From: Elusimicrobiota bacterium
GTDB lineage: Bacteria > Elusimicrobiota > Elusimicrobia > Elusimicrobiales > UBA9959
DNA length: 64,000 nucleotides
Direction of reading: 5' to 3'
NCBI GenBank assembly: GCA_019135865.1
Contig: JAGVVD010000052.1
Location: 201,011-265,010, forward strand
Positions within the stretch are counted from its first letter, which is position 1. Each line of letters starts with the position of its first letter. A model generated the notes under the pieces. It saw only the letters and a program-made list of their open reading frames with translations. It ran no database searches and was not told the origin of the DNA. A program made the position numbers and the translations under genes. Below, in pieces: positions 22,815 to 37,956 of this stretch.

Positions 22815-25225
22815 ATGGGAACCAGGTTCACTGAACGCGCGCAGAGGGTCATACTCATCGCCCAGGAGGAGGCCAAGCGCCTCAACCACGATTACGTAGG
22901 GACCGAGCATATCCTGCTCGGCCTCATAGCGCTCGGCGAGGGCGTCGCGGCCCAGGTCCTGTCCAACATTGGCGTCGACCTGCGCAAGGTGCGCGCCGAG
23001 ATAGAGAAGATCGTCGGCATCGGCGACAACATGATGCTGCTCGGCGAGATCCCCTTCACGCCGCGCGCCAAGAAGGTGCTGGAGTTCGCGGTCTCCGAGG
23101 CCTCGGACATGAAGCATACCTATATCGGCACCGAGCATATCCTGCTCGGCCTCATCCGCGAGGAGGAGGGCGTGGCCGCCCGCGTGCTGCAGAACCTGGA
23201 GCTCAAGCTGGACGCCGTGCGCGAGGAGGTGCTCAGCACGCTGGGCGAGAGCGAACAGGGCGGCGCCGAGGGCGGCGGCAAAGGCGAGAAGGGTGAGCCG
23301 CGCGAGCAGGCCCAGCCCCGTTCCCACGCCGCGCCCAAGGGCAAGACCAAGACCCCGACGCTCGACGAGTTCGCGCGCGACATGACGCAGCTGGCCCGCG
23401 AGGGCAAGCTGGACCCGGTCATCGGCCGCATCAACGAGATAGACCGCCTGGTGCAGGTGCTCGGACGCCGCACCAAGAACAACCCGACACGCTGGCCGGC
23501 AAGCGCCTGCTCTCGCTCGACCTCGCGTCCATCGTGGCGGGCACCAAGTATCGCGGCGAGTTCGAGCAGCGGCTCAAGAGCATCATCGAGGAGATACGCA
23601 AGGCCAGGAACTCCATCATCGCCTTCATAGACGAACTGCACACCGTCATCGGCGCCGGCGCCGCCGAGGGCGCCATAGACGCCTCAAACATGCTCAAGCC
23701 CGCGCTGGCGCGCGGCGAGCTGCAGTGCATAGGCGCGACGACTTTCGACGAGTACCGCAAGCACATAGAGCACGACCCGGCGCTGGAGCGCCGCTTCCAG
23801 CCCGTGGTGGTGGACCCGCCGTCGGTGGAAGAGACCGTCGAGATACTCAAAGGGCTGCAGGAGAAATACGAGTCCCATCACAAGTGCAAGTACACCGACC
23901 CGGCCATCTTCGCCGCGGTGGTGCTGTCGGACAAATATATCACCGACCGGGCCCTTCCGGATAAGGCCATCGACCTGCTCGACGAGGCCGGCAGCCGCGC
24001 GCGGCTGACGATCTCCGTCGTCCCGCCCGAGTTCAAGCAGAAGGAGATGGAGCTCGAGGAGGTCACCAAGGAGAAGAACGCGGCCTCCTACGCGCAGGAG
24101 TTCGAGAAGGCCTCCAAGCTGCGCGACAAGGAGAAGGAGCTCAAGAAGGCCATCGAGGACGCGCGCAAGAAGTGGCGCGAGGCCCGCGACAAGCAGACCC
24201 CCGAAGTGACCGAGGAGGACATCGCCTCCATAGCCTCCAAGTGGACCGGCATCCCGGTCACGCGCATGACCGAGAGCGAGGTGGACAAGCTCAAGAACAT
24301 GGAGTCGGAGATCCACAAGCGCCTCATCGGCCAGGACGAGGCGGTCAGGATCATAGCGCAGGCCATCAAGCGCAGCCGCACCGGCATGAAGGACCCCAAG
24401 CGCCCGATCGGCAATTTCATCTTCCTCGGTCCGACGGGCGTCGGCAAGACCGAGCTGGCCCGCGTGCTGGCGGACTTCCTCTTCGGCAACGAGGAGGCCA
24501 TGGTCCGCATCGATATGTCGGAGTACATGGAGAAGTTCTCCGTGAGCCGCCTCATCGGCGCGCCCCCCGGCTACGTCGGCTACGAGGAGGGCGGCAAGCT
24601 GACCGAGCTCGTGCGCCGCAAGCCCTACTCCGTCGTCGTGCTCGACGAGATAGAGAAGGCCCATCCCGACGTCTTCAACATCCTGCTGCAGATCATGGAC
24701 GAGGGCACTCTGACCGACAGCCTCGGCCACAAGGTCAGTTTCAAGAACTGCATTCTCATCATGACCTCCAACGTCGGCGCCCGCATGATCTCGAAGGGCA
24801 AGTCGCTGGGCTTCGTGCCGGCAGAGGACAAGGAGAAGGATTACCGCGAGATGAAGGACACCGTGATGGACGAGGTGAAGCGCGTCTTCAACCCCGAGTT
24901 CATCAACCGCATCGACGAGATCATCGTCTTCCGCCCGCTGACGGAAGGCGACATGGAGCACATCCTGGAGCTCAACCTGCGCAAGGTGGACAAGAAGCTC
25001 GCGGACCGCGGCCTGAAGCTGGAGATCACCTCCGCGGCGAAGAAATTCCTGATCAAGACCGGCTTCGACCCGAACTACGGCGCGCGGCCCATCCTGCGCA
25101 CCGTGCAGCGCCTGCTGGAGGACCCGATAGCGGAGTTCATCCTCAACGCCAACGCCAAGGCCGGCGCTACGATCAAGGCCGATTACAAGGGCGAGGGCGA
25201 GAGCCTTACGCTGGCCGCCGACTGA
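22815..25225 (+). pseudogene. clpC: ClpC-type AAA+ chaperone subunit with the first Walker A deleted and the frame shifted
   Basis: The first part (22815 to about 23490) has the double Clp-N repeats ([35 protein letters not shown]), a linker and the start of NBD1 up to LGRRTKNNP. The normal continuation (VLIGEPGVGKTAIVEGLA...) is absent. Instead the next bases encode [19 protein letters not shown] in another frame, which then runs intact to 25225. That part includes [12 protein letters not shown] (Walker B), the UVR-type middle domain, the NBD2 Walker A GPTGVGKTEL and the D2 domain. About 82 nt are missing between two CCCG tetranucleotides. As read, no functional ClpC is made; mis-assembly is the main alternative. 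Confidence 0.85.
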
Positions 25226-27166: not shown

Positions 27167-27240
27167 TAAAAAAATTCTATAACCTTTGCCGGGAACTGAC
27201 TACACACCTGCGGTATCAAGTAATATAAATACTTATAGTG

Positions 27241-27269
27241 TTGACAAAGCGGGGGTATGGGGCTATACT
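27241..27269 (+). promoter_or_regulatory. near-consensus sigma-70 promoter of the DUF4384/LPP20 operon
   Basis: TTGACA (27241-27246), a 17-bp spacer, and TATACT (27264-27269). This is the closest match to the sigma-70 consensus in the window. Transcription would start about 2-3 nt before ATG 27279, leaving almost no leader. Confidence 0.8.
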
Positions 27270-27278
27270 ATGGGCGTT

Positions 27279-28277
27279 ATGCGGGGGGATTTTGCACTCA
27301 AAACCGGAATCGGAGCGCGCTGGGTGTGGCCGGGACTTCTGCTAATGGCCGGCCTGGCGTCCTGTTCCGCCGCCCCAGAACGCCGTTCCGCGAATAGCGC
27401 GGGCGCCGGCGATATACGAACCAAATCCGATAGTATAGGCCGGGACCTCCCATCCGGGTCCGCCTTGCCCGCTTCCGCTTCTCCACTCCCGGTGACCATC
27501 CTTTCCAGGACCGCCGAGTTTCTAGAATTCGAGGCCGAAGGCGAGGGCCTGGCCGCCAAGTACGAGCGCGTCATAGACGCCGAGAAGCGCGCCGAAGAGG
27601 ACGCCCTCGCCCGCGCCGTCAAGGAGGCGGGCGTCAACGTATACTCCGGTTTCCAGGACATCATGCAGGAAAGCGCCGGGACCAGCTACCAGTTCGTGGG
27701 CAGGTATCTCAATGTCTGGTCCGATTCGCTGGTCTCTTACGAGCGCGCCGGGCGGCCCGTCTGCGCTTACGCCGCCGACGTCCACCGCTGCGCGGTCAAA
27801 ATACGCGGCAAGGTCTATTTCAAAGGCGCCCCGGACCCCAATTTCGAGCTGCGCGCGGCGCTGGGCAAGCCGGCCTATTTCGCCGGCGACGACGTCACCC
27901 TGCGCGTGCGCCTGACCAGGGACGCTTATGTCACCGTCCTGAACTGCGACGAGGACGGCAATGTCACTCTGATCTACCCCAACCGCCACGCCCGGGACAA
28001 CTTTCTGCCGGCCGGCAGGGATCTGGACATCCCCGGCGAGCTCTTCCGCCTTACGGCCCTGCTGCCGCCCGGCCGCGCCGAGACCGGCGAACTTATGCAC
28101 GTGATAGCCACCAAAAAACGGCCGCTGGTGCCGCTGGACGCGGTGAAAGAGGAAAAGAGCGGCGCGTTCATCACCTATTCGCTGGGCGGCGTCAAGGAAC
28201 TGGTGACAAAACTGTCGCGCTTCGACCGCGCCGACTGGACCGCCCAGGCGATGATCTACGCAGTGAAAGCAAAATGA
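27279..28277 (+). CDS. DUF4384-domain lipoprotein
   Basis: 332 residues from ATG 27279, with a lipoprotein signal ending LMAGLASC. Residues about 80-190 are helical and LPP20-like (YERVIDAEKRAEEDALARAVKEAGVNVYSGFQDIM). The C-terminal part (LGKPAYFAGDDVTLRVRLTRDAYVTVLNCDEDGNVTLIYPN...FRLTALLPPGRAETGELMHVIATKKR) is a recognisable DUF4384 beta-sandwich, a domain often fused to or encoded near caspase-fold proteins. A caspase fusion lies 6.6 kb downstream. No SD is seen. It precedes the LPP20 gene by 11 nt. Confidence 0.8.
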   Translation: MRGDFALKTGIGARWVWPGLLLMAGLASCSAAPERRSANSAGAGDIRTKSDSIGRDLPSGSALPASASPLPVTILSRTAEFLEFEAEGEGLAAKYERVIDAEKRAEEDALARAVKEAGVNVYSGFQDIMQESAGTSYQFVGRYLNVWSDSLVSYERAGRPVCAYAADVHRCAVKIRGKVYFKGAPDPNFELRAALGKPAYFAGDDVTLRVRLTRDAYVTVLNCDEDGNVTLIYPNRHARDNFLPAGRDLDIPGELFRLTALLPPGRAETGELMHVIATKKRPLVPLDAVKEEKSGAFITYSLGGVKELVTKLSRFDRADWTAQAMIYAVKAK

Positions 28278-28288
28278 CCGGAGGGAAC

Positions 28289-28834
28289 ATGAAAAAAGAA
28301 ATATTCGCGGTAATATTCGCGGCGGTGCTGGCCGGATGCGCCGGCAACAAGGTCGCCAGCGGAGCCCCGGACTGGGTGAACAAGGGCCAGGGCGCGTTCA
28401 AAGACAATAATCTCTACGGCGTGGGGATGGTGACCGGGATGCAGAACCGCGCGCTGGCCGTGGATACGGCCGATAACCGCGCCCGCGCCAAGATAGCCGA
28501 GGTCCTCAACAACAACGTGGAAAAGATGACCCGCGACTACATGGCCAGCACCGCCGCCGGCGACATGAAGCGCTCCAGCGAGGAGCAGGATATCCGCGCG
28601 GGGTTAAAGACCTTCGTGCAGACAAATCTCACCGGCGTGGTCATAGTGGACCACTGGCGCGACACTTCCGACGGCACCATGTTCGCCCTGGCCAAGCTGG
28701 ACCCCAAGTCCTTCAAGTCCTGGGTGGAGGATAGCAGGGAGCTCAACGCGCAGGTCCGCGACTTCGTCCGCGCCAATGCCGACAAGTATTTCCAGGAGAT
28801 GGCGCAGGAATCCGAAAAACGCGCCGGGAAGTAG
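28289..28834 (+). CDS. LPP20-family outer-membrane lipoprotein
   Basis: 181 residues. Lipobox LAGC (AAVLAGCAGN), then APDWVNKGQGAFKDNNLYGVGMVTG and NRARAKIAEVLNNNVEKMTRDYM, the standard LPP20/LPP-repeat opening. A conserved last third follows (MFALAKLDPKSFKSWVEDSRELNAQVRDFVRANADKYFQEM). A gaggga SD precedes ATG 28289. The last 156 bp (28679-28834) recur twice downstream as truncated copies bounding A+T-rich cargo genes. Role probably structural in the outer membrane. Confidence 0.87.
   Translation: MKKEIFAVIFAAVLAGCAGNKVASGAPDWVNKGQGAFKDNNLYGVGMVTGMQNRALAVDTADNRARAKIAEVLNNNVEKMTRDYMASTAAGDMKRSSEEQDIRAGLKTFVQTNLTGVVIVDHWRDTSDGTMFALAKLDPKSFKSWVEDSRELNAQVRDFVRANADKYFQEMAQESEKRAGK
28679..28834 (+). 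repeat. LPP20 gene-end repeat, copy 1 (intact gene end)
   Basis: The last 156 nt of the LPP20 gene, starting at an internal in-frame ATG (MFALAKLDPK...). It is the reference for the two downstream partial copies. Confidence 0.8.
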
Positions 28835-28897
28835 CCGGCACGGATCTCCTGTCTTTGTTGGTTGAAGGCGACGGATTTTGGTTCCACTTTGTCCTTA

Positions 28898-29161
28898 ATG
28901 GTTAATGGGAGTAGATTGCTTCTTGACGAAGCGTTGGGCGAGCATGACGCTGTGGGCGTCTGTTCGATGTTCTGGAATCAGAAATGGATGAATATCGTGT
29001 ATTGTCTGGCATGTGGCGGGTTTTTTGAATTGTCATCCGGCGGCTATAAAAGAATCCAAGGGAACGACGCGTTATTGCTAAGGGCAATACGTTCTAAAAT
29101 GCCGAAAAAACACAAATCGATGCTGGATGAATATATCCAGTATTTAAGAAAGGAGCGATAA
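28898..29161 (+). CDS. island cargo protein of unknown function (cassette A, first gene)
   Basis: 87 residues, opening MVNGSRLLLDEALGEHDAVG. It has three cysteines, aromatic beta-like middle strands (MNIVYCLACGGFFELSSGGYKRI) and a helical, basic C-terminus (KKHKSMLDEYIQYLRKER). Size and layout resemble small immunity-type partners, but nothing proves it. The DNA is much poorer in GC than the host genes. Its stop TAA overlaps the ATG of the next gene at 29161 (taATG), so the two are translationally coupled. An in-frame open stretch extends upstream to 28862. Confidence 0.5.
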   Translation: MVNGSRLLLDEALGEHDAVGVCSMFWNQKWMNIVYCLACGGFFELSSGGYKRIQGNDALLLRAIRSKMPKKHKSMLDEYIQYLRKER

Positions 29162-29841
29162 TGAAAATTTTTGACATATTTAAAAGTTCACCACCCCCAT
29201 GCCAATTTTGTGGGCAACGGCCCGAATATAAAACTTCCATGTCCAATATCGCCAGATTTATTTTCTTTGATGACGGCACCGGCCTTGCTGACGGGAACAG
29301 GACGGTTTATGAGGAGTACGCCGATCCAAAATATTACAGTAAAACTAATCCGCTGGTTTTTCCGGAGCTTGAATTATCTGAGTTTGTTAATCAAGACGAC
29401 CTTGTCCTCTATATGGAAGCCAAAAGCCGCGTCAGGCGTCATAAATGCGTGATTTACTCGTCTTCCAGGCGTTGCGCGGCATGCAACAGGAACGCTGAAG
29501 AACTACTGCATATCGAAGATGATGTGGAGGTTTTTTCCGGCATTGACGCTGTCGCCGCGTATGCGTATAAACGGGATTTCTGTTTGCAGCCTGACTTCTT
29601 AAAACAGTTTCGAGATTTTTCAGATACGAACATTACGGAGATTGATGCGCTGGATGAAGAGGCTAGATCGCTTGCCGGGGAATTGATGTTGGCGCCCCGA
29701 CAGCATTATTTAGCCCCTTTGCTATATTGGATCACCATTATGAGTGGGGATGAGGGCGATTTGACCGACGTCGAAATTTCTGAAAGGCTCCGTTCTGAAA
29801 AGCGAAAAAAATCTGGATGGTCCCTGGCAAGAAGAGATTAG
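29161..29841 (+). CDS. island cargo protein with two CxxC knuckles (cassette A, second gene)
   Basis: 226 residues. Two zinc-knuckle-like pairs are present, CQFC near residue 14 and CAAC near 101, and may form one bipartite metal site. The rest is mixed with acidic stretches (HIEDDVEVFSGIDAV) and a helical C-terminus. No family recognised. A first-line count gives 23 G+C in 60 bases (29161-29220), against 37 in 60 for 28681-28740 in the neighbouring host gene. Followed 28 nt later by repeat copy 2. Confidence 0.55.
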   Translation: MKIFDIFKSSPPPCQFCGQRPEYKTSMSNIARFIFFDDGTGLADGNRTVYEEYADPKYYSKTNPLVFPELELSEFVNQDDLVLYMEAKSRVRRHKCVIYSSSRRCAACNRNAEELLHIEDDVEVFSGIDAVAAYAYKRDFCLQPDFLKQFRDFSDTNITEIDALDEEARSLAGELMLAPRQHYLAPLLYWITIMSGDEGDLTDVEISERLRSEKRKKSGWSLARRD

Positions 29842-29869
29842 GATGGATTATAGGTGTGGCGTAGGGGTT

Positions 29870-30025
29870 ATGTCTGCACTGGTCGAGCTGGACCCGGCGG
29901 CCTTCAGATTCTGGATGGAGATTCGCAGGACTCTCAACGCGCAGGTTCGCGACTTCGTCCGCGCCAACGCCGACAAGTATTTCCAGGAGATGGCGCAGGA
30001 ATCCGAAAAACGCGCCGCGAAGTAG
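29870..30025 (+). repeat. LPP20 gene-end repeat, copy 2 (frame intact)
   Basis: Exactly 156 nt, like copy 1, beginning at the corresponding ATG and ending at the same TAG. The first 63 nt match copy 1 at 44 positions, but the last 93 nt at 90 positions by direct comparison. This abrupt jump suggests recombination or gene conversion of the 3' part. The frame is open from ATG 29843 and could encode a 60-residue orphan tail, but no SD or signal peptide is present. Confidence 0.8.
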
Positions 30026-30099
30026 AGAATAAAGTATCTCTTCCGTTCTGGTTATCCCGGGCGGAAAAGGTCCTGCATAGAGGAGCAAAAGGCAAGTGT

Positions 30100-30381
30100 A
30101 TGAATGAGAAGAGCTATATCGAAATTGAAGTATGTGTGCCAAATCATTCCCCTGTTAAGATTGCCGGCACCCCTTCCGAGGTTGTTGATCGATTGCGCAA
30201 TTATATCTTGGAACCTCGGTCTCGGAAAAAGTCCCTGGCAGAATACTGTGAGTTCGTGAACAAGACCACCGGTAGTCCAACATCAGATCCGATTCCTGTA
30301 TTGGAGAAATGGTTGAAGCAGTGTCAGCCAGGAGAGGCTCGCCATCCAGGCTTTAAAATCCGGGTGATAAATATCACCTAA
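30100..30381 (+). CDS. island cargo small protein (cassette B, first gene)
   Basis: 93 residues, starting MNEKSYIEIEVCVPNHSPVKIAGTPSEVVDRL. It is predicted mixed alpha/beta with a basic patch (EPRSRKKSLAEYCEF). AGGAGC lies about 14 nt before ATG 30100, rather far. No family recognised. It is followed after 73 nt by the larger cargo gene, repeating the small-then-large order of cassette A. Confidence 0.5.
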   Translation: MNEKSYIEIEVCVPNHSPVKIAGTPSEVVDRLRNYILEPRSRKKSLAEYCEFVNKTTGSPTSDPIPVLEKWLKQCQPGEARHPGFKIRVINIT

Positions 30382-30454
30382 CGATATAACGATGTCGTCG
30401 GACTATCTTGTCTATGGCTAAAATATTGAGAAGTGAGCAGCTACCCTTTCAAAT

Positions 30455-31513
30455 ATGAACGCATATAGGAAATTACATGAGTTGCAAAGAACCGCCGGTT
30501 TTGTGGCTTTTGAAAAAGAGTTCGCCAATGCTATTGCCGCTGGTTTGTCCGCGTCGTATGGTGGTAGAGAGGAAAAACTGGTGGAGCGGCTGTGTGGAGA
30601 AATAAGTGGACTGCCTCAAACGCGAAATGTTAATGGCGTTACAATTGCGAATAATGCGGTTTTTTTGCACGGGGGGAAGTCACAGGTAAAATTTCAATAC
30701 TATGATGAGTCTGCTCGATGCGAATTGTGCGACTTGCTCTATATCATAACAGTGGTTTACAAAGGAGAAATAGTTTTACAAAAACTGACCCTGTCTCAAT
30801 TTAAGAAAGCTTCAAGCGGAAGCTGGAAGTGGGATATCAGGAATAAATCTGGCAACAAGCCGCGGAAAACTCAATTGTATTTGCTATCGCGGTTCCCGGA
30901 ATTCGAGACGGTTTCTAGGGCATCTCTAGGGTCAGGGAAATATTCATTGCCTAACCACACAGGCTGTTTGGGCTCATATTGTTTATTACATGCACCCGGC
31001 GATTTTGTTTTTATCGCGGCCACGTCCCTGGCTGAAATCGTGGGCCCCCGCGACAATGTTTGTGCTACGGACTTTGTGGCGCTTGGTCGTAACGGTGATG
31101 CGATCTCACGGTTGCGTGGGCCCTGCGCTTTATGTTGTCCGGCGGAATCCCTCTGTGGTCCGGATTGTTACTTTGAGGATTTTCCGAGGGGGCGCCTTTT
31201 TAAAAAATCCACTTATCCCTACGCTACAAATGTTTATGACTTTTCCCATAAATATTTGAGGCTGGGGATTGGTGAACCGGTATATGCGCTCTCGACTAAT
31301 TATAACGAGCAGCTTTTTAACTGGTGGCAGAATTTCCTTGCCGCCACCGAGCAGTCTAATAAAAAAGGGGTGGGCGCAAAAAAATTTATAGAGGATATGC
31401 CAAGGAAATATTTAAATAGGGCATCCAATGAGTCCAGGAGGCATAACGATGCGAACTTGGGTTATGCTGGCATGGGCGTGATTTATACTGTTGTCAATCT
31501 CGGAGCAGAGTGA
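30455..31513 (+). CDS. island cargo protein with possible PD-(D/E)xK-like nuclease motif (cassette B, second gene)
   Basis: 352 residues. The segment from about 80 to 115 (SARCELCDLLYIITVVYKGEIVLQ...LSQFKK) has an Asp followed by a hydrophobic strand and then Q-x-K. This resembles the core of some restriction-like nucleases (D...QxK) and bacterial proteins that read ELADLL...LQAK. The rest is Cys-rich (CALCCPAESLCGPDCYF) with an aromatic C-terminus. No helicase, methylase or toxin signature. A+T-rich DNA with foreign codon use. Function is unproven; the nuclease idea is a pattern match by eye. Confidence 0.45.
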   Translation: MNAYRKLHELQRTAGFVAFEKEFANAIAAGLSASYGGREEKLVERLCGEISGLPQTRNVNGVTIANNAVFLHGGKSQVKFQYYDESARCELCDLLYIITVVYKGEIVLQKLTLSQFKKASSGSWKWDIRNKSGNKPRKTQLYLLSRFPEFETVSRASLGSGKYSLPNHTGCLGSYCLLHAPGDFVFIAATSLAEIVGPRDNVCATDFVALGRNGDAISRLRGPCALCCPAESLCGPDCYFEDFPRGRLFKKSTYPYATNVYDFSHKYLRLGIGEPVYALSTNYNEQLFNWWQNFLAATEQSNKKGVGAKKFIEDMPRKYLNRASNESRRHNDANLGYAGMGVIYTVVNLGAE

Positions 31514-31874
31514 GAGGCGCCAATGCGGTTTCGAACTTAGTGAGGAGAGGCGTGTTTAGGAGAAAAGATCGCTGGCGCCGGTTTCTCTCCATGTTCGCCC
31601 TGGCCAAGCTAGACCCCCAAGTCCTTCAAGTCTTGGGCGGAGAATAACAAAGAACTTAATACGCAGGTCCGGGATTTCGTCCGCGCCAACGCCGACAAAT
31701 ACTTCCAGGAGATGGGCAGGAATTCGAACAGTGCGCGGCGAAGTGGTAGAAGACGATCGCACTTGGGCGTAGGAACTTAATTCAAGAACATGCGGCTGCG
31801 GGGATTTAACGGTGTATTTTTGCGGGAAAAATGTGGGTATAAAACAAAAACAATAAATTTAAAAGGCGGCAAAT
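31514..31874. other. gene-poor stretch containing degenerate repeat copy 3
   Basis: 361 bp without a convincing gene. It holds the decayed LPP20 gene-end copy at 31591-31749, flanked by short unassigned sequence. The last 120 bp become A+T-rich (aaaacaaaaacaataaatttaaaagg) and probably contain the promoter and SD (AAAGGCGG) of the gene at 31875. Confidence 0.6.
31591..31749 (+). repeat. LPP20 gene-end repeat, copy 3 (decayed)
   Basis: Starts at the same ATGTTCGCCCTGGCC boundary as copy 1, with an extra C in the CCCCC run that shifts the frame. It ends near AAGTGGTAG with further small indels. It shares a 20-nt run (CGTCCGCGCCAACGCCGACA) with copy 2. It cannot encode the LPP20 tail. Confidence 0.75.
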
Positions 31875-32180
31875 ATGTGGCTGACGAGTAAAGAGCAAAA
31901 ATTGTTTAAACGAGTGCGTGAAAAGCTCAATAAAATTGAGCGGAAGATCGAGGCGGAAGATGCTCATGATGGCCTACCAAACGACCTGGCTGAGTGCGCA
32001 AGGTTGGCAAGACGATTACATGATTCGCTGGTCGCTCGCGGAGAATCTCCGCGATATTCAAGGAGATTTGTTTGTAATCGTGGTTCAGATCCGGATTCCG
32101 AAACATTTTACAACCATGTTGATGCGATAAGGAAATTATTGGGGTTTATTGACGCAATCAAGAAGGATGGGAGAGGATGA
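31875..32180 (+). CDS. island cargo helical protein (cassette C)
   Basis: 101 residues, highly charged and helical: LTSKEQKLFKRVREKLNKIERKIEAED, then LAECARLARRLHDSL and a C-terminal AIRKLLGFIDAIKKDGRG. No family recognised. It may be a small antitoxin, immunity or regulatory protein, but there is no direct evidence. Its TGA overlaps the ATG of a 41-codon frame (ATGA), suggesting coupled translation. Confidence 0.5.
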   Translation: MWLTSKEQKLFKRVREKLNKIERKIEAEDAHDGLPNDLAECARLARRLHDSLVARGESPRYSRRFVCNRGSDPDSETFYNHVDAIRKLLGFIDAIKKDGRG

Positions 32181-32302
32181 TGAAAAGCTGTTGTCGAGAG
32201 CTCTACAGAAGGGACGGTCCCTGTTGTAAACAGGCTAGATTCGTTCGCATCAAGCTGGAAGTCGATGATGCAAGGTTTTCGATGGATGCTGTTGTGCGCT
32301 GA
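32177..32302 (+). CDS. 41-residue cysteine-containing micropeptide
   Basis: Starts MMKSCCRELYRRDGPCCKQ and ends FSMDAVVR. Two adjacent-cysteine pairs (CC...CC) lie within 13 residues, with a basic surround. The only support is the 4-nt ATGA overlap with the preceding gene; no homologue is known to me. Confidence 0.3.
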   Translation: MMKSCCRELYRRDGPCCKQARFVRIKLEVDDARFSMDAVVR

Positions 32303-32340
32303 AGCTTATGGTGCAAGGTTTATATCGCCCCCGGGCATGA

Positions 32341-32454
32341 TTGGCGTACATTGTCCCCGCGCTTTCTGTATTTGATGATTCCCCGAGAGCAAAATATACA
32401 GGAGCGCATCTAATTGAAAAACTTGAGAAAGGCGCTAAGTGGGTTGTGCGATAA
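32341..32454 (+). other. possible gene-end remnant before the propeller/Ig gene
   Basis: A 37-codon open stretch (FDDSPRAKYTGAHLIEKL...GAKWVVR then TAA) reads like the C-terminus of a protein, but it has no proper start or SD. It may be the tail of a gene lost when the island formed. The interval 32303-32469 holds nothing else I can assign. Confidence 0.2.
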
Positions 32455-32469
32455 TGAGCACATGTTATT

Positions 32470-34893
32470 ATGAAGAATGGCATGATAATTTTTTTAGCGT
32501 TAGGATTCCATTCGGTGACGGCATCTGCGGGTTGGATGGTTCAAGAACCGGATCCGGCATTTTCGGGGCTTTATGATACGGCATTGCATCTTGATGATAT
32601 TGGAAATGCGCATATTGTCTATTTGGCTGATAGCCTCCCGACATTGAGATATGTGTACTGGAATGGGAATGTTGGCACGAAGAGCGTGGTCGATACATAT
32701 AAGAACGGACTAAAGCCTACTAAAATATCGCTCGACCTTGCGGGTGATGGCAATCCGGGGGTTTCGTACCCGGGAGTGAGGTCGGGCGGGGGAAATAATC
32801 TGAAGTATGCCAAATGGACCGGAGTCTCTTGGTCTACGGAAACAGTAGATGATACAAATGGTGTCGGCCCCGTCTCGTCGTTGAAATTTGACACGATTAC
32901 TGGGTTTCCTGTTATCGCATATTCTGGCGGGGACGACGTAGGATTAAGGTGCGCTAAATGGGATGGGAGTGCGTGGGATATTCAAACGATTGAAAGTTTT
33001 ACGCTTAACGGAAGCCAACCGAGACACCCGGTATTAGTATTGGATTCAGATGGACATCCACGTATTGTATACAATGATGCCAATGGATTTCTCTTGAAAT
33101 ATGCTGAGTGGAGCGGAACCGAGTGGTCAACGCAGACAATAGCCAACGTTCTGCCACTCGATTCAGTAGCAGTGGCATTGGATGCGAATGGGGCCGCGCA
33201 CATCTCATATGCAGATGGCAGCGTAATGCCGAATCTAGTGAAGTATTCCTATTGGACTGGAGCAGCATGGCAGTCTGAAACTATAGATTTTGGTTTACAA
33301 AATTCAATAGTTGTTTCTGGGAACAGCGTGGCTGTCGCATATCGTCATGGGGTCGAGATTAAAGTGGGACGTAAATATGGCGCAGGCTGGTCAACGCATA
33401 CAGTAACCACGCAAGGGTATCGCCAGGTCTCCCTGGGTATAATTGCCCCAGATTCTTTGAGGATTTCCGCAGGGAGTAGTCCATCAGGCGGGTTGCGTTA
33501 TCATCTTCTCGACAATATTGCGCCATCCATTGCTTGGACCGGAGAGGCCGGTTATAACGCAAGCGGCGTGAGCCCGGGGTCTGGAGACTCAAGCACTGGT
33601 TTTGTGTTTAAAGTGAAATACTCCGACCCGAATGGGGATGCTCCATTGAATGGGTATCCAAAGGTGTGGATAGACAAGGGGGGTGTCGCTATTAGTGGCA
33701 GTCCTTTCATCATGACTTATCTTTCTGGCGCCTATAGCTCGGGGGCGATATACGCGCTAACAAAAACACTCTCTCCGGGGGATGATTACACCTATGGTTT
33801 TGAGTCGCAGGATTCATATGGTTCGGCTGCTAGTGGCGCCCCGACCATGTTGTTGTCTGGTCCTCTGGTTTCAAGTTATTCCCCGGTGTTAAGTTGGAGC
33901 GGTGAAATAAACTACACAATTGATGGTCTTAATCCGGAAACCGGAAATCGTACGACAAACTATATCTTCCGCGTTAAGTATTCGGACGCGGATAATGAGG
34001 CGCCGCTCGCGGGATACCCGAGGGTGCGTATCTTCAGGAGCGGCGCCGAGATCGCCGGCAGCCCATTCCCTATGAATTATGTTTCCGGCGCCAGCCTTGC
34101 CGGAGCTGTATATAGTTATGCCGCCACGCTGGTGCCTGGCGGCTATACCTATTATTTCGAGGCCAAGGACGCCAGCGGCGTGGACGCGGGCGGGACGCCA
34201 ACTGATGAATCATCCGGCCCGACGGTCGGTAATCAGGCCCCAGCACTTGCCTGGACCGGTGAGGCGAACTACGCTTCGGACGGCGTATATCCCAAAGCCG
34301 GCAACGCGTCCACGAATTACGTGTTCCGGGCAAAATATTCGGATCCGGATAACGACGCGCCGGGGGCGGGTTTTCCGCGAGTGCATATAAAACGCGGCGG
34401 CGCGGAGATCGCCGGGAGCCCGTTCGCCATGAGCTATGCTTCCGGGGCGAATGATACCGGCGCTATATACACGCTTACGAAGAACCTTGCCGCCGGGGAT
34501 TACAGTTATTCCTTCGAGGCACTGGACCTTTACTCCGGCGCCGCGACCGGAGCGCCGACCGTCGAGAGGTCCGGGCTTGTGGTGATCGGCGACGCCGCCG
34601 CGCCTCCGGCGCAGGAGGTCAAGGTTTATCACGGGGTGTTCAAGCCGGGGCAAAGCGAGAGGGCCAGCGTGGCGTTCAACACCCCGGCGGCCGTCGCGAT
34701 CACCGTCACCGCTTATAACAGCCTGGGAGGAAAAGTTAAGGAGCTTTACCGCGGCACTTCTTCCCCTGGTTTGAATTCGGTCCAATGGGACGGCCGCGAC
34801 GAAAGCGGCCAGCGCGTCTCCAGCGGCGTCTACACCATCAAGATCGAAGGCGGCGGCATAAACCAAAGCAAACGCGTGGTGGTGGTGAGGTAA
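32470..34893 (+). CDS. large secreted protein: beta-propeller-like repeats, three Ig-like repeats, FlgD/sorting-like C-terminus
   Basis: 807 residues with a signal peptide (about 1-20). Residues about 25-320 are repeats of the type LKYAKWTGVSWSTETV / LKYAEWSGTEWSTQTI, a propeller-like pattern of about 55 residues. From about 350 to 700 there are three copies of an Ig-like domain (AWTGEANYASDGVYP...KYSDPDNDAP...SGSPF-type). The C-terminus (about 720-807: VKVYHGVFKPGQSE...VQWDGRDESGQRVSSGVYTIKIEG...KRVVVVR) matches FlgD-Ig/type A sorting-like domains. The 5' half is A+T-rich (25 of 60 G+C at 33061-33120) but the 3' end is host-like (36 of 60 at 34741-34800), so the gene looks chimaeric. It lies 6 nt before the caspase fusion gene. 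Confidence 0.75.
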   Translation: MKNGMIIFLALGFHSVTASAGWMVQEPDPAFSGLYDTALHLDDIGNAHIVYLADSLPTLRYVYWNGNVGTKSVVDTYKNGLKPTKISLDLAGDGNPGVSYPGVRSGGGNNLKYAKWTGVSWSTETVDDTNGVGPVSSLKFDTITGFPVIAYSGGDDVGLRCAKWDGSAWDIQTIESFTLNGSQPRHPVLVLDSDGHPRIVYNDANGFLLKYAEWSGTEWSTQTIANVLPLDSVAVALDANGAAHISYADGSVMPNLVKYSYWTGAAWQSETIDFGLQNSIVVSGNSVAVAYRHGVEIKVGRKYGAGWSTHTVTTQGYRQVSLGIIAPDSLRISAGSSPSGGLRYHLLDNIAPSIAWTGEAGYNASGVSPGSGDSSTGFVFKVKYSDPNGDAPLNGYPKVWIDKGGVAISGSPFIMTYLSGAYSSGAIYALTKTLSPGDDYTYGFESQDSYGSAASGAPTMLLSGPLVSSYSPVLSWSGEINYTIDGLNPETGNRTTNYIFRVKYSDADNEAPLAGYPRVRIFRSGAEIAGSPFPMNYVSGASLAGAVYSYAATLVPGGYTYYFEAKDASGVDAGGTPTDESSGPTVGNQAPALAWTGEANYASDGVYPKAGNASTNYVFRAKYSDPDNDAPGAGFPRVHIKRGGAEIAGSPFAMSYASGANDTGAIYTLTKNLAAGDYSYSFEALDLYSGAATGAPTVERSGLVVIGDAAAPPAQEVKVYHGVFKPGQSERASVAFNTPAAVAITVTAYNSLGGKVKELYRGTSSPGLNSVQWDGRDESGQRVSSGVYTIKIEGGGINQSKRVVVVR

Positions 34894-34899
34894 AGGCGG

Positions 34900-37800
34900 A
34901 TGAAACGTGAGTTCGCATTGTCCGCGCTCGCCTTCGCCCTGGCGCATACGGTCCATGCCGCCGGGCAGCCGACGGCGCTGTTCCTGCTGGACGCGCAGCC
35001 CAATGTCCGCGCCTATTCGATGGGAGGGGCTTTCTCCTCGCTGGCGCGGGCCGACGCCGCCTACGATCCCTGGGGGCTCGGCTACGCCGTCAGCCCTTCC
35101 GTCTCGCTGGCTCATTGGCCCGGCTCCGTGCTGGACAGCAATTATAATTTCGTCTCGCTCGTCGCCCCGCACGACAAACTGGGGGCCTTCAGTCTCTCCT
35201 ATCTGAGCTACACCACCGGTTCCGAGACCATCGAGGAGTTGGACGGCACCGCGCGCAGCATAACGCTTGAGGACAATAAGCTCATCTCGCTGGGCTACGG
35301 CCGCGGCCTTACCCGGAACCTTTTCGCCGGCGCGGCCGTTAAGAGCCTGACCAGCGCGCTGGCCGACGATTACAAGGCCAGCGCCATGCTGCTGGACCTC
35401 GGCCTGGTATACCGCACTTTGGACGACAGGCACAGTCTCGGCGCGGCTATGACTAATCTCGGCGGCGGTCTTAAATATTATGAGACGGAGGAGCCGCTCC
35501 CGACCGAGGTGAAGTTCGGCTATACCCGCGAAACCCGTCCCTGGGCCGGGCAGAAGGTGGTCTGGGGCCTGGGCTATTCCCGGTCCGAGGTCTCAAGCGG
35601 CTACTCCCTGGGCGCGGAGTACTTCCCCGGCATTCCCTTCGTTTCGCTGCGCGCCGGCGTCAACAGGGGCGGCGAGCGGACAAGGCTTATGGCCGGGCTG
35701 GGGCTCAATTACAGCGCTTTCGACCTGGACTTCGGCTACGACCTTTCCGCGGATAATGTCGAGGAGGACCGGAGCCCGCTGCGCTTCGCCCTCACCTGGA
35801 CCTTCGGCGAGCGCGGGGCCTACTTCGCCGGGGAAAAATATATGGCCCGCGGCATGAAAGAGAGGGGCGTGGCGGTATGGGAGGGGATCGGGCCGGGGGA
35901 GCCGGACCATGCCCGGGCGCGGGAGGCCATCCGGCAGTACGCGAACCCGCCGCGGCTGCTGGCCGGCGCGGTCCTGGAGGACGCCAATGGCGACGGCGTG
36001 CTGTCGCCGGGAGAGGCGGGAAGTCTTGTGGTGACGCTGACCAACGGCGGGCGAGGCCGCGCTCTGCTGCCGCGCGTGACGGTGGAGCCGGCGGACCGGG
36101 GCGTGGCGATGCGAAATATAGAAACGGGGCTTTACGACGGCCTTGTGCAGGAACTGGAGCCCGGGCGGAGCGCTTCTTTCAGGGTGCCGGTCAAGGCGCT
36201 GGAAGAGTCCGAACGGACCGGCGTCGCTTTCAATGTGAGCGTCAAAGAAGCCCGGGGTTTCAACCCCGAGCCGGTCTTGTTCACGCTGCCGCTTAAAGGC
36301 TTTTCGCCTCCGCGGCTCGCCCTGGCGCGCTATACTTTCCGCGAGGATAATACGGGCAATTCCTCCGGCAACGGCAACGGGATAATAGAGAAGGGCGAGC
36401 AGGTGGAGCTGACCGGCTACCTGGTGAACGCCGGCCTTACCGAGGCGCGCGGGGTTAAATTCGAGGCCGTCTCCGGCGATCCGCGCCTGGCGCTTATCGG
36501 TCAGCCTTCCGCCGACATCGGTACGCTGAAGCCCGGAGAACACCGGAAGGTCCTGCTGGCCTTCCGGGTGGCGGCGGATTATTCCGGCCCGGCGCAACTG
36601 CCGCTGGTCTTCAGGATGACAGAAGCCCGGCCGCGCTTTTCAAGGGAGCAGCCGGCGCGCCTGGCGCTGGGCGGCTTCTACAAGGACCCTGTCGAACCGG
36701 TCTTCGGCGATCTCGACGCCTCGGCGGCGCTGGCTTCGGTGCCTGCGCTGGCCGGTCCCATTTCCGACTCGCGCGCGGCCGAGGTGGTGACGCTTATCGC
36801 CGGCGCGCCGCCCGTCCTGGAGTTCGACGTGACCCGCCTGCCGGACGACAACGGCAACGGCGTCTATGAGCCGGGCGAGACGCTGCGCTTCAAGGTGGGC
36901 ATACGCAACACAGGCGGCAAGACGGCGCGTGGGGTAGTGGTGGCGCTGGACGGCGATAGCATGGTGAAGACCCTGCTGGAGGACCGCCGCGTGGGGGATA
37001 TAGCGCCCGGCAGATACCAGCCGGTGCTGCTGGAGGCGCGCATTCCCGAGACCGTGCCGCGTAAAGAGGCGTCGTTCAGGATCAGAGTGACGGAAAGCAG
37101 CGGCTTCGGCGCCAGCAAGATAGAGGAGGCCCGCGCGGCCTTCCAGGCGAAAGAGGTCAAAGTCGTCAGGCAGCTCGCCAGCCTCATGCCCGTGCCCGGG
37201 ACGCGGCCCGGCTGGCGCGGCCGTTCAGGCGCTATCGTGGTGGGGATCGGGGCCTATGGCCCGGCGGTCGGCGCGCTGAAATACGCCGCGCGCGACGCCG
37301 AGCTGGCCGCTAAATATTTCAGCGGCGCGCTGGGCGTCCCCGAGGGCAACATAAAGGTCGTTCTCGACGGTAAAGCCACCAAGTCCCGCATAGAGGCGGA
37401 AGTCGCCAGTATGGCCGACAAGGGGCTGGACTTCGTCGCCCTGTATTACTCCGGCCACGGCGTGCCGGACCCGGACAACCCGCGCACCGGCGACCCCTAC
37501 ATCGTGCCGGTGGACGCGGACCTGGAACTGGGCGGCCGCATGCTGATACGGCTCAACGAGATCGTCACCGCGCTCGAGCGCGGGACAAAGGACGTCGTGG
37601 TGCTGCTGGACGCCTGCTTTTCCGGCAATATCGAGAGCGCGCCCAGGGTTTATGCATCGGCGCAGAAGGGCCTGGGTATAGCGCCGCGCTTCGCGCAGGA
37701 GAAAGCCGTGGTGATGACCGGCTCCAGCGCCGCGCAGCCCAGCCTGGAATACGACAGGGCCGGGCACGGCTATTTCAGCTATTATTTCATGCTCGGTCTT

Positions 37801-37956
37801 AAGGGCGAGGCTGACAAGGATAATGACGGCGTCGTGACCGAATCGGAACTTTGCCGATACACCGCCGCCGCCATGGCCGCCGACGAGAGCCTCAACGGGC
37901 GCCAGACCCCGCAGTGTTCCAACGCCGGCGACAGAGTGCTCGGCCGGTACAGGTAA
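34900..37956 (+). CDS. PorV-like outer-membrane barrel fused to Ig-like domains and a caspase-family peptidase
   Basis: 1018 residues. Signal peptide about 1-20. The barrel-type region runs from about 25 to 310, opening ALFLLDAQPNVRAYSMGGAFSSLARADAAYDPWGLGY as in PorV/UPF0164 proteins and closing PLRFALTWTFG. About 345-760 are three CARDB/Ig-like domains, each opening with a Ca-binding-like loop (DANGDGVLSPGE, NGNGIIEKGE, DDNGNGVYEPGE). About 775-1018 is a C14 caspase-like domain with AIVVGIGAYG, AARDAELAAKYF, YYSGHG (H853) and LLDACFSG (C906), so the catalytic dyad is intact; a DKDNDGVVTESE loop is near the end. Probably co-transcribed with the sorting-tail protein upstream. The fusion is unusual. 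Confidence 0.82.
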   Translation: MKREFALSALAFALAHTVHAAGQPTALFLLDAQPNVRAYSMGGAFSSLARADAAYDPWGLGYAVSPSVSLAHWPGSVLDSNYNFVSLVAPHDKLGAFSLSYLSYTTGSETIEELDGTARSITLEDNKLISLGYGRGLTRNLFAGAAVKSLTSALADDYKASAMLLDLGLVYRTLDDRHSLGAAMTNLGGGLKYYETEEPLPTEVKFGYTRETRPWAGQKVVWGLGYSRSEVSSGYSLGAEYFPGIPFVSLRAGVNRGGERTRLMAGLGLNYSAFDLDFGYDLSADNVEEDRSPLRFALTWTFGERGAYFAGEKYMARGMKERGVAVWEGIGPGEPDHARAREAIRQYANPPRLLAGAVLEDANGDGVLSPGEAGSLVVTLTNGGRGRALLPRVTVEPADRGVAMRNIETGLYDGLVQELEPGRSASFRVPVKALEESERTGVAFNVSVKEARGFNPEPVLFTLPLKGFSPPRLALARYTFREDNTGNSSGNGNGIIEKGEQVELTGYLVNAGLTEARGVKFEAVSGDPRLALIGQPSADIGTLKPGEHRKVLLAFRVAADYSGPAQLPLVFRMTEARPRFSREQPARLALGGFYKDPVEPVFGDLDASAALASVPALAGPISDSRAAEVVTLIAGAPPVLEFDVTRLPDDNGNGVYEPGETLRFKVGIRNTGGKTARGVVVALDGDSMVKTLLEDRRVGDIAPGRYQPVLLEARIPETVPRKEASFRIRVTESSGFGASKIEEARAAFQAKEVKVVRQLASLMPVPGTRPGWRGRSGAIVVGIGAYGPAVGALKYAARDAELAAKYFSGALGVPEGNIKVVLDGKATKSRIEAEVASMADKGLDFVALYYSGHGVPDPDNPRTGDPYIVPVDADLELGGRMLIRLNEIVTALERGTKDVVVLLDACFSGNIESAPRVYASAQKGLGIAPRFAQEKAVVMTGSSAAQPSLEYDRAGHGYFSYYFMLGLKGEADKDNDGVVTESELCRYTAAAMAADESLNGRQTPQCSNAGDRVLGRYR

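Follow-up and report, generated by a model that had tools for sequence, protein, structure and literature searches.

A composition step within the Ig stalk of an Elusimicrobiota surface-protein gene suggests head replacement on a conserved export anchor

Substrates of the type IX secretion system (T9SS) that carry a C-terminal domain of type A or B and go with PorV/SprF-family shuttle genes combine a signal peptide, a large exposed part and an Ig-like C-terminal domain, and a PorV/PorQ-family barrel is encoded adjacent to them. Among propeller proteins, the PLL/PHL lectins of Photorhabdus are seven-bladed, and in other Elusimicrobiota Ig stalks bear propellers of the RCC1, Kelch and BNR classes. 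Rhs and CDI toxins join a constant delivery part to a variable C-terminal tip, and the relics displaced from this tip lie downstream; for CDI systems, tip exchange and displaced orphan modules are described in PMC4927057. Here, we compare with these systems a gene located at positions 32470-34893 of a stretch of 64,000 nucleotides of Elusimicrobiota DNA, which is called the window in this paper. In a partial literature collection, judged from titles and the openings of abstracts, no report on this gene arrangement was found. The gene is one open frame of 807 codons, and its features and those of its surroundings are as follows.

27186-28277, plus strand: DUF4384 gene, conserved upstream neighbour (PF14326, 8.5e-16)
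28274-28834, plus strand: lipoprotein gene, the 3' end of which is the upstream edge (PF08139, 0.0075, below cut-off)
28679-28834, plus strand: 3'-end copy R1 of the lipoprotein gene, native (repeat comparison)
28844-33982, no strand: low-G+C tract (0.471), which extends over the start of the hybrid gene (segment score versus block shuffles)
28862-29841, plus strand: cargo ORFs of 99 aa and 226 aa between R1 and R2 (ORF list)
29870-30025, plus strand: 3'-end copy R2, with 86% identity and a 51-codon frame that is open as far as the stop
30100-31513, plus strand: cargo ORFs of 93 aa and 352 aa between R2 and R3 (ORF list)
about 31589-31744, plus strand: 3'-end copy R3, 85% identical with gaps, frameshifted
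31875-32180, plus strand: 101-aa ORF between R3 and the hybrid gene (ORF list)
32470-34893, plus strand: hybrid head-stalk-anchor gene, 807 aa (ORF list, Pfam, change-point fit, model)
32470-32532, plus strand: likely signal peptide of about 21 residues, identified from the sequence by eye, without a predictor
32572-33519, plus strand: beta-propeller head, about residues 35-350 (predicted model and structural comparison)
33529-33888, plus strand: Ig-like repeat 1, low G+C (repeat split)
33889-34245, plus strand: Ig-like repeat 2, which contains the composition join (repeat split, step position)
33940-34006, plus strand: interval supported for the composition step, with the best point at 33964 (change-point fit)
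34246-34599, plus strand: Ig-like repeat 3, host-like G+C (repeat split)
34657-34848, plus strand: FlgD Ig-like/T9SS-type C-terminal domain, residues 730-793 (PF13860, 4.4e-11; weak TIGR04183 match below cut-off)
34900-37956, plus strand: PorV/PorQ-family barrel fused to a caspase domain, 1018 aa (NF033709, 2e-25; PF00656, 6.5e-15)

Most probably, the gene encodes a secreted surface protein, which consists of a signal peptide, a beta-propeller head, a stalk of three Ig-like repeats and an export and anchoring end of the FlgD/T9SS type. The FlgD Ig-like domain was the sole Pfam match above cut-off, and no solved structure was found at 0.01 when the protein was used for a sequence search. The predicted model of the 807-aa protein (four sequences, mean pLDDT 71.6, pTM 0.42) involves repeated beta strands at residues 37-312, which are followed by three Ig-like repeats and the tail. 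The head (pLDDT roughly 50-87) models as a beta-propeller like that of the Photorhabdus PLL lectins, which it matched with a Z score of 24.9 (rmsd 3.0 over 278 residues) at moderate model confidence; sialidase-like hydrolases and integrin alpha heads formed the rows beneath these lectins. Foldseek also returned the type IX proteins PorZ and PorU, but the alignments had very large rmsd values. In contrast to the PLL/PHL lectins, with which it shares 11% sequence identity, the window propeller is mounted on an Ig stalk. This stalk has the same Ig repeats as the RCC1, Kelch and BNR proteins of other Elusimicrobiota, which belong to other propeller classes. In some of these Ig-stalk proteins (G024, L062), the tail or the PorV-caspase neighbour is missing. 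On the metagenome contig L062, which shares two downstream genes with the window (49-52% identity), the Ig repeats are followed by RCC1 repeats, and tail and PorV-caspase gene were absent from the 17 kb examined. The predicted fold suggests that the window head may bind sugars, but a common fold is by itself no proof of sugar binding.

Unlike the tails of T9SS substrates, the window tail best matches FlgD_ig, and the T9SS tail model of NCBIfam (TIGR04183) reached 20.2 bits, which is below its cut-off of 23. A FlgD-type tail match is also present in another gene of the same genome (L008, G000:C54:24883-25125), which constitutes a giant surface-protein gene with an open frame of 16,223 codons, and a comparable giant open frame (17,613 codons) was seen in G011. 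The barrel encoded downstream of the hybrid gene matched NF033709 with 90.1 bits at a cut-off of 90 and belongs by this measure to the PorV/PorQ-family shuttles. Different from T9SS, however, this barrel is fused to a caspase domain, and the search for SprA in the same genome gave three partial matches within one divergent, SprA-like frame of 1813 aa (best 6.9e-23), all of which were below the curated cut-off. A peptidase C25 sortase gave no match in this genome, and the control queries were equally silent. Export of the hybrid protein would be T9SS-like, and the adjacent PorV-family barrel may, by analogy, function as shuttle for the window tail. The caspase part retains its His and Cys within the usual caspase motif context, and it could process the substrate or a target. 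According to PMC3482391, caspase-like domains serve as processing peptidases in polymorphic toxins. A defence island was rejected as explanation, since PADLOC matched nothing beyond the caspase domain and, weakly, AbiTi (0.05).

An earlier note had counted 25 G+C among the 60 bases at 33061-33120 and 36 of 60 at 34741-34800 and had located the change near 33950-34050, inside the second Ig repeat. Our recount gave identical values, and in a change-point fit the third-position G+C of the gene rose from 0.45 to 0.72 at nucleotide 33964 (support 33940-34006). The log-likelihood gain of this step (third codon positions) was 28.4, compared with a maximum of 8.2 over 1000 permutations, and further steps on either side were not strong (gains 0.6 and 3.1). 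By total G+C, which rose from 0.48 to 0.62 (gain 23.0), the gene ranked first among 212 ORFs of at least 300 codons; these ORFs were taken from the window, from 380 kb of sampled stretches of the same genome and from locus L099, and some of them are probably shadow frames. When third positions only and a cruder start calling were used, it ranked sixth of 204, but the five ORFs ahead of it look like mis-set starts and were absent from the top 15 by total G+C. The low-G+C tract (5139 bp, score 337 versus a maximum of 92 when 300-bp blocks were shuffled 200 times) opens 10 bp past the lipoprotein stop codon and ends at 33982 inside the hybrid gene, and the island boundary does fall within a gene, as had been claimed. 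The hybrid gene has the marks of a mosaic gene, which are an abrupt in-frame change of composition and relatives (G035, G036) with only one part in common.

A paralogue on contig C48 of the same genome, which has a propeller-like part, a tail and a PorV-like neighbour, showed a weaker step (gain 9.7, rank 4 of 212). At 5898-10159 of L099, an own-genome paralogue with a propeller-like part and a FlgD-type tail is paired with a PorV-like gene, and its 5' part is lower in G+C. Elsewhere in the window (22815-25225), a gene that we take to be ClpC-like is divided between the ORFs 22815-23630 and 23534-25225, which overlap and lie in different frames. The third-position G+C of the first ORF drops near codon 224, and the split represents a frameshift or a sequencing error.

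To find relatives of the hybrid gene, 61 genomes of the family and the order were surveyed, 41 of which contained a match at E 0.001, in many cases to the tail only. The genomes of the same genus (G001-G003) contained short tail matches only, so that they provide no recent before-and-after pair. The PorV-caspase gene had a strong match (E 1e-100 or better) in 6 of 294 genomes of the phylum, the window's genome included, and in five of these six it is adjoined by a head-Ig gene (window, G035, G020, G036, G249). G020 is a member of the same family as the window genome, and in G036 the order is PorV-caspase gene, 243-aa ORF, head-Ig gene. The sixth genome (G284) was left out of the five because its match to the PorV-caspase gene begins at residue 484 and the 18 kb examined contained no head-Ig ORF. 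In this genome (L136, 6258-9021), where the first 483 residues are missing from the match, the ORF just upstream of the break is presumably transposase-like. In G249, an ORF6N gene (phage antirepressor-like) lies between the head gene and the PorV-caspase gene (L135, 3966-4490), and the latter is split across two overlapping frames (L135, 4594-7667). An ORF 58% identical to this ORF6N gene occupies the same position in G020 (L096, 14545-15081).

When the relatives were aligned, as the earlier note had proposed, stalk and tail at the C-terminus turned out to be common to them and the N-terminal heads to differ. Over about 460 residues (last three Ig repeats and tail), the anchors share 58% (G035), 62% (G036), 61% (G020) and 62% (G249) identity with the window protein, and the tails alone share 71-77%. 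The head of G036 is an RCC1 propeller (Pfam, 1.4e-78) and that of G020 is BNR_4-like (Pfam, 8.5e-6, slightly below cut-off); Pfam gave no head family for G249 and for G035, the head of which is a 131-residue region. Global alignments with 50 shuffles each indicated that the window head is 36-38% identical to the heads of G020 and G249, which is far above the shuffles, and that the latter two are 50% identical to each other. For the pairs window-G036, window-G035, G020-G036 and G249-G035, the similarity was within about 1.3 SD of the shuffled mean. The five anchors carry two or three unrelated head types: related propellers in three of them, RCC1 in one and the 131-residue region in one. The head of G007 is closer to that of G020 (49%) than the window head is (36%), and it belongs to a gene with a more distant tail, for which no PorV-caspase gene was found in the 12 kb fetched. 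One neighbour gene is 88% identical between G035 and G249 and another one is 85% identical between G020 and G036, and given these shared neighbours, different heads seem to occupy the same chromosomal positions.

It had also been suggested that a new exposed domain was spliced onto a resident anchor. The hybrid nature of the gene and a join inside it are supported by our data, but a propeller on this anchor is no novelty: related heads sit on it in G020 and G249, and a change of head class at the window itself does not follow. Moreover, the join is located within homologous stalk repeats and not at a domain border. The composition suggests that the head half is the arriving half, and with a join inside the stalk repeats Ig1 and the start of Ig2 would have come along with the head.

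The best reading of these data, to which we assign a probability of about 0.7, is a repeated replacement of heads at a hot spot by recombination in the Ig stalk, during which the C-terminal export anchor and the neighbour gene are kept. AT-rich DNA would deliver the head together with Ig1 and the beginning of Ig2, and recombination between homologous Ig repeats would join the incoming head to the resident stalk and tail. The resident PorV-family barrel/caspase is probably a dedicated shuttle or surface anchor for whichever head is present. The 3' end of the lipoprotein gene would form the other edge of the replaceable segment, its extra copies would be marks of earlier insertions, and the replacement of a head would leave relics upstream. 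A donor with near-identical head DNA was not found. In a FastTree analysis of the Ig repeats, the last repeats of window, G035, G036 and G020 clustered (0.999); the second-last and third-last repeats clustered by position with weak support, and this grouping reached Ig1 at 0.69. Given the positional grouping, the gene probably recombined with another allele or with a close homologue, as homologous recombination in the stalk would require. Since the grouping reaches Ig1, the tree alone is no proof of a foreign Ig1; it fits an allelic donor, but equally a vertically inherited stalk.

Upstream of the hybrid gene, the terminal 156 bp of the lipoprotein gene are present in three copies and were found nowhere else in the same genome at E 0.001. 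The ORFs of this island (99, 226, 93, 352 and 101 aa) gave no convincing family in Pfam, NCBIfam, PHROGs and PADLOC, and no known toxin or immunity family was detected among the cargo ORFs in Pfam, PHROGs and PADLOC. The 352-aa protein matched 2 of 294 genomes (itself and one weak match at 8.3e-5) and the 226-aa protein matched itself only (1 of 294); by sequence, the two cargo genes are essentially ORFans among these genomes. A phage origin of head or cargo was rejected, since neither the head nor the 352-aa cargo protein had a confirmed relative in viral scans and PHROGs gave nothing convincing for window proteins. Three 3'-end copies with ORFan genes between them look as if insertions had recurred here. 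In G035, the lipoprotein homologue ends inside the 3' region and is followed by an AT-rich 114-aa ORF; the match in G036, where the gene order differs, also ends at residue 143. On the G020 contig, DUF4384 and lipoprotein genes are followed by AT-rich ORFs at the contig end. A caspase gene comes directly after the lipoprotein gene in G005 and within about 500 bp of it in G008, in both cases without a head-Ig gene between them.

For the island part, and compatible with head replacement, small integrative elements may have used the 3' end of the lipoprotein gene as a specific insertion site and restored the gene end each time, and the foreign 5' part of the hybrid gene would have come with the last one. 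The three direct copies have a sharp common start and end, and the outermost one is decayed, as might be expected from such elements. However, Pfam, NCBIfam and PHROGs gave no integrase or transposase match among the island ORFs tested, and the copies are 14-15% apart, which would require old insertions or foreign copies. We consider this scenario possible but rather doubtful.

Alternatively, the whole gene might have arrived AT-rich, and recombination with a resident anchor copy might later have converted its 3' part to host-like sequence. The gene would still be a hybrid, but its tail would be the newer part. Such a conversion would leave an identical-looking junction. AT-rich head-Ig genes are present in the lower-G+C relatives G020 and G249, and the last part of the G020 gene has a third-position G+C of 0.72 versus 0.60 in its PorV-caspase gene. 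On the other hand, the PorV-caspase gene directly downstream in the window is of uniform, host-like composition (gain 1.1), so that the window tail is continuous with resident DNA, and we regard this reversed direction as unlikely.

In all five genes beside PorV-caspase, the composition steps up in the same direction (gains 28.4 for the window and 15.2, 20.3, 31.0 and 25.0 for the others), and the best low-G+C segment of each locus lies across the 5' end of the head gene. Full-length orthologues of uniform composition, which the earlier note had named as counter-evidence, were not what we observed; the two nearest full-length homologues (G020, G249) are both stepped. The PorV-caspase genes of four of these five genomes have little step (gains 1.1, 1.4, 2.8 and 6.8). 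For homologues away from PorV-caspase (G024, G007, G014, G016), the gains were 2.7 to 4.8 at loci that are nearer to 50% G+C, where a step is harder to detect. The identical polarity might also be explained without recombination by an old gradient of codon use in one vertically inherited gene, for instance by weaker codon selection on exposed heads, and heads diverge faster than anchors even when they are related, as in the G020-G249 pair. However, the window step is sharp (66-bp support), and the step point differs from gene to gene (codon 498 of 807 in the window, 252 of 614 in G035, 924 of 1048 in G020, 489 of 960 in G036 and 710 of 1165 in G249). Furthermore, the low-G+C tract continues upstream across unrelated ORFs and spacers, and not all heads are homologous, which makes such a gradient very improbable. 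Although the genome is a 59-contig draft, it is hardly credible that two organisms were fused at an Ig repeat by the metagenome assembly. Of the exact words that touch the join, the longest one to recur in the own-genome sequence examined has 14 bases, the Ig repeats are just 55-65% identical in DNA, the frame remains open across the join and similar steps occur in four other assemblies. The lipoprotein edge, where the longest recurring exact word has 49 bases (R1 to R2), is less safe against misassembly than the join.

Under the preferred reading of repeated head replacement, the locus resembles the Rhs/CDI toxins (PMC4927057) in its constant delivery part, its variable functional end and the displaced relics beside the gene. 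Unlike these toxins, the window type varies its N-terminal head and has its relics upstream, and the C-terminus, where a variable toxin domain would be located in Rhs/CDI proteins, is the conserved part. Because of the N-terminal variation, the upstream relics and the lack of toxin or immunity families in the databases searched, we did not class it as a polymorphic toxin. By analogy, the hybrid locus may nevertheless work like the tip exchange of polymorphic toxins with reversed polarity. More tentatively, the segment from the lipoprotein 3' end to the Ig stalk might be a dedicated exchange site of Elusimicrobiota, at which AT-rich cassettes introduce an N-terminal head along with small accessory genes, leaving the locus with another copy of the lipoprotein 3' end. 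The 156-bp copies would then be a fossil record of successive insertions, and the process would mirror Rhs/CDI tip exchange with the export signal held constant.

By analogy, the fusion of a PorV-family barrel with a caspase beside a substrate of variable head suggests a specialised shuttle. With five genomes, one anchor and two or three unrelated heads, the idea can be tested by comparing further strains at the same position. The locus provides an example of how members of an uncultured phylum may alter surface binding while the export anchor stays constant, with the join visible within one reading frame.
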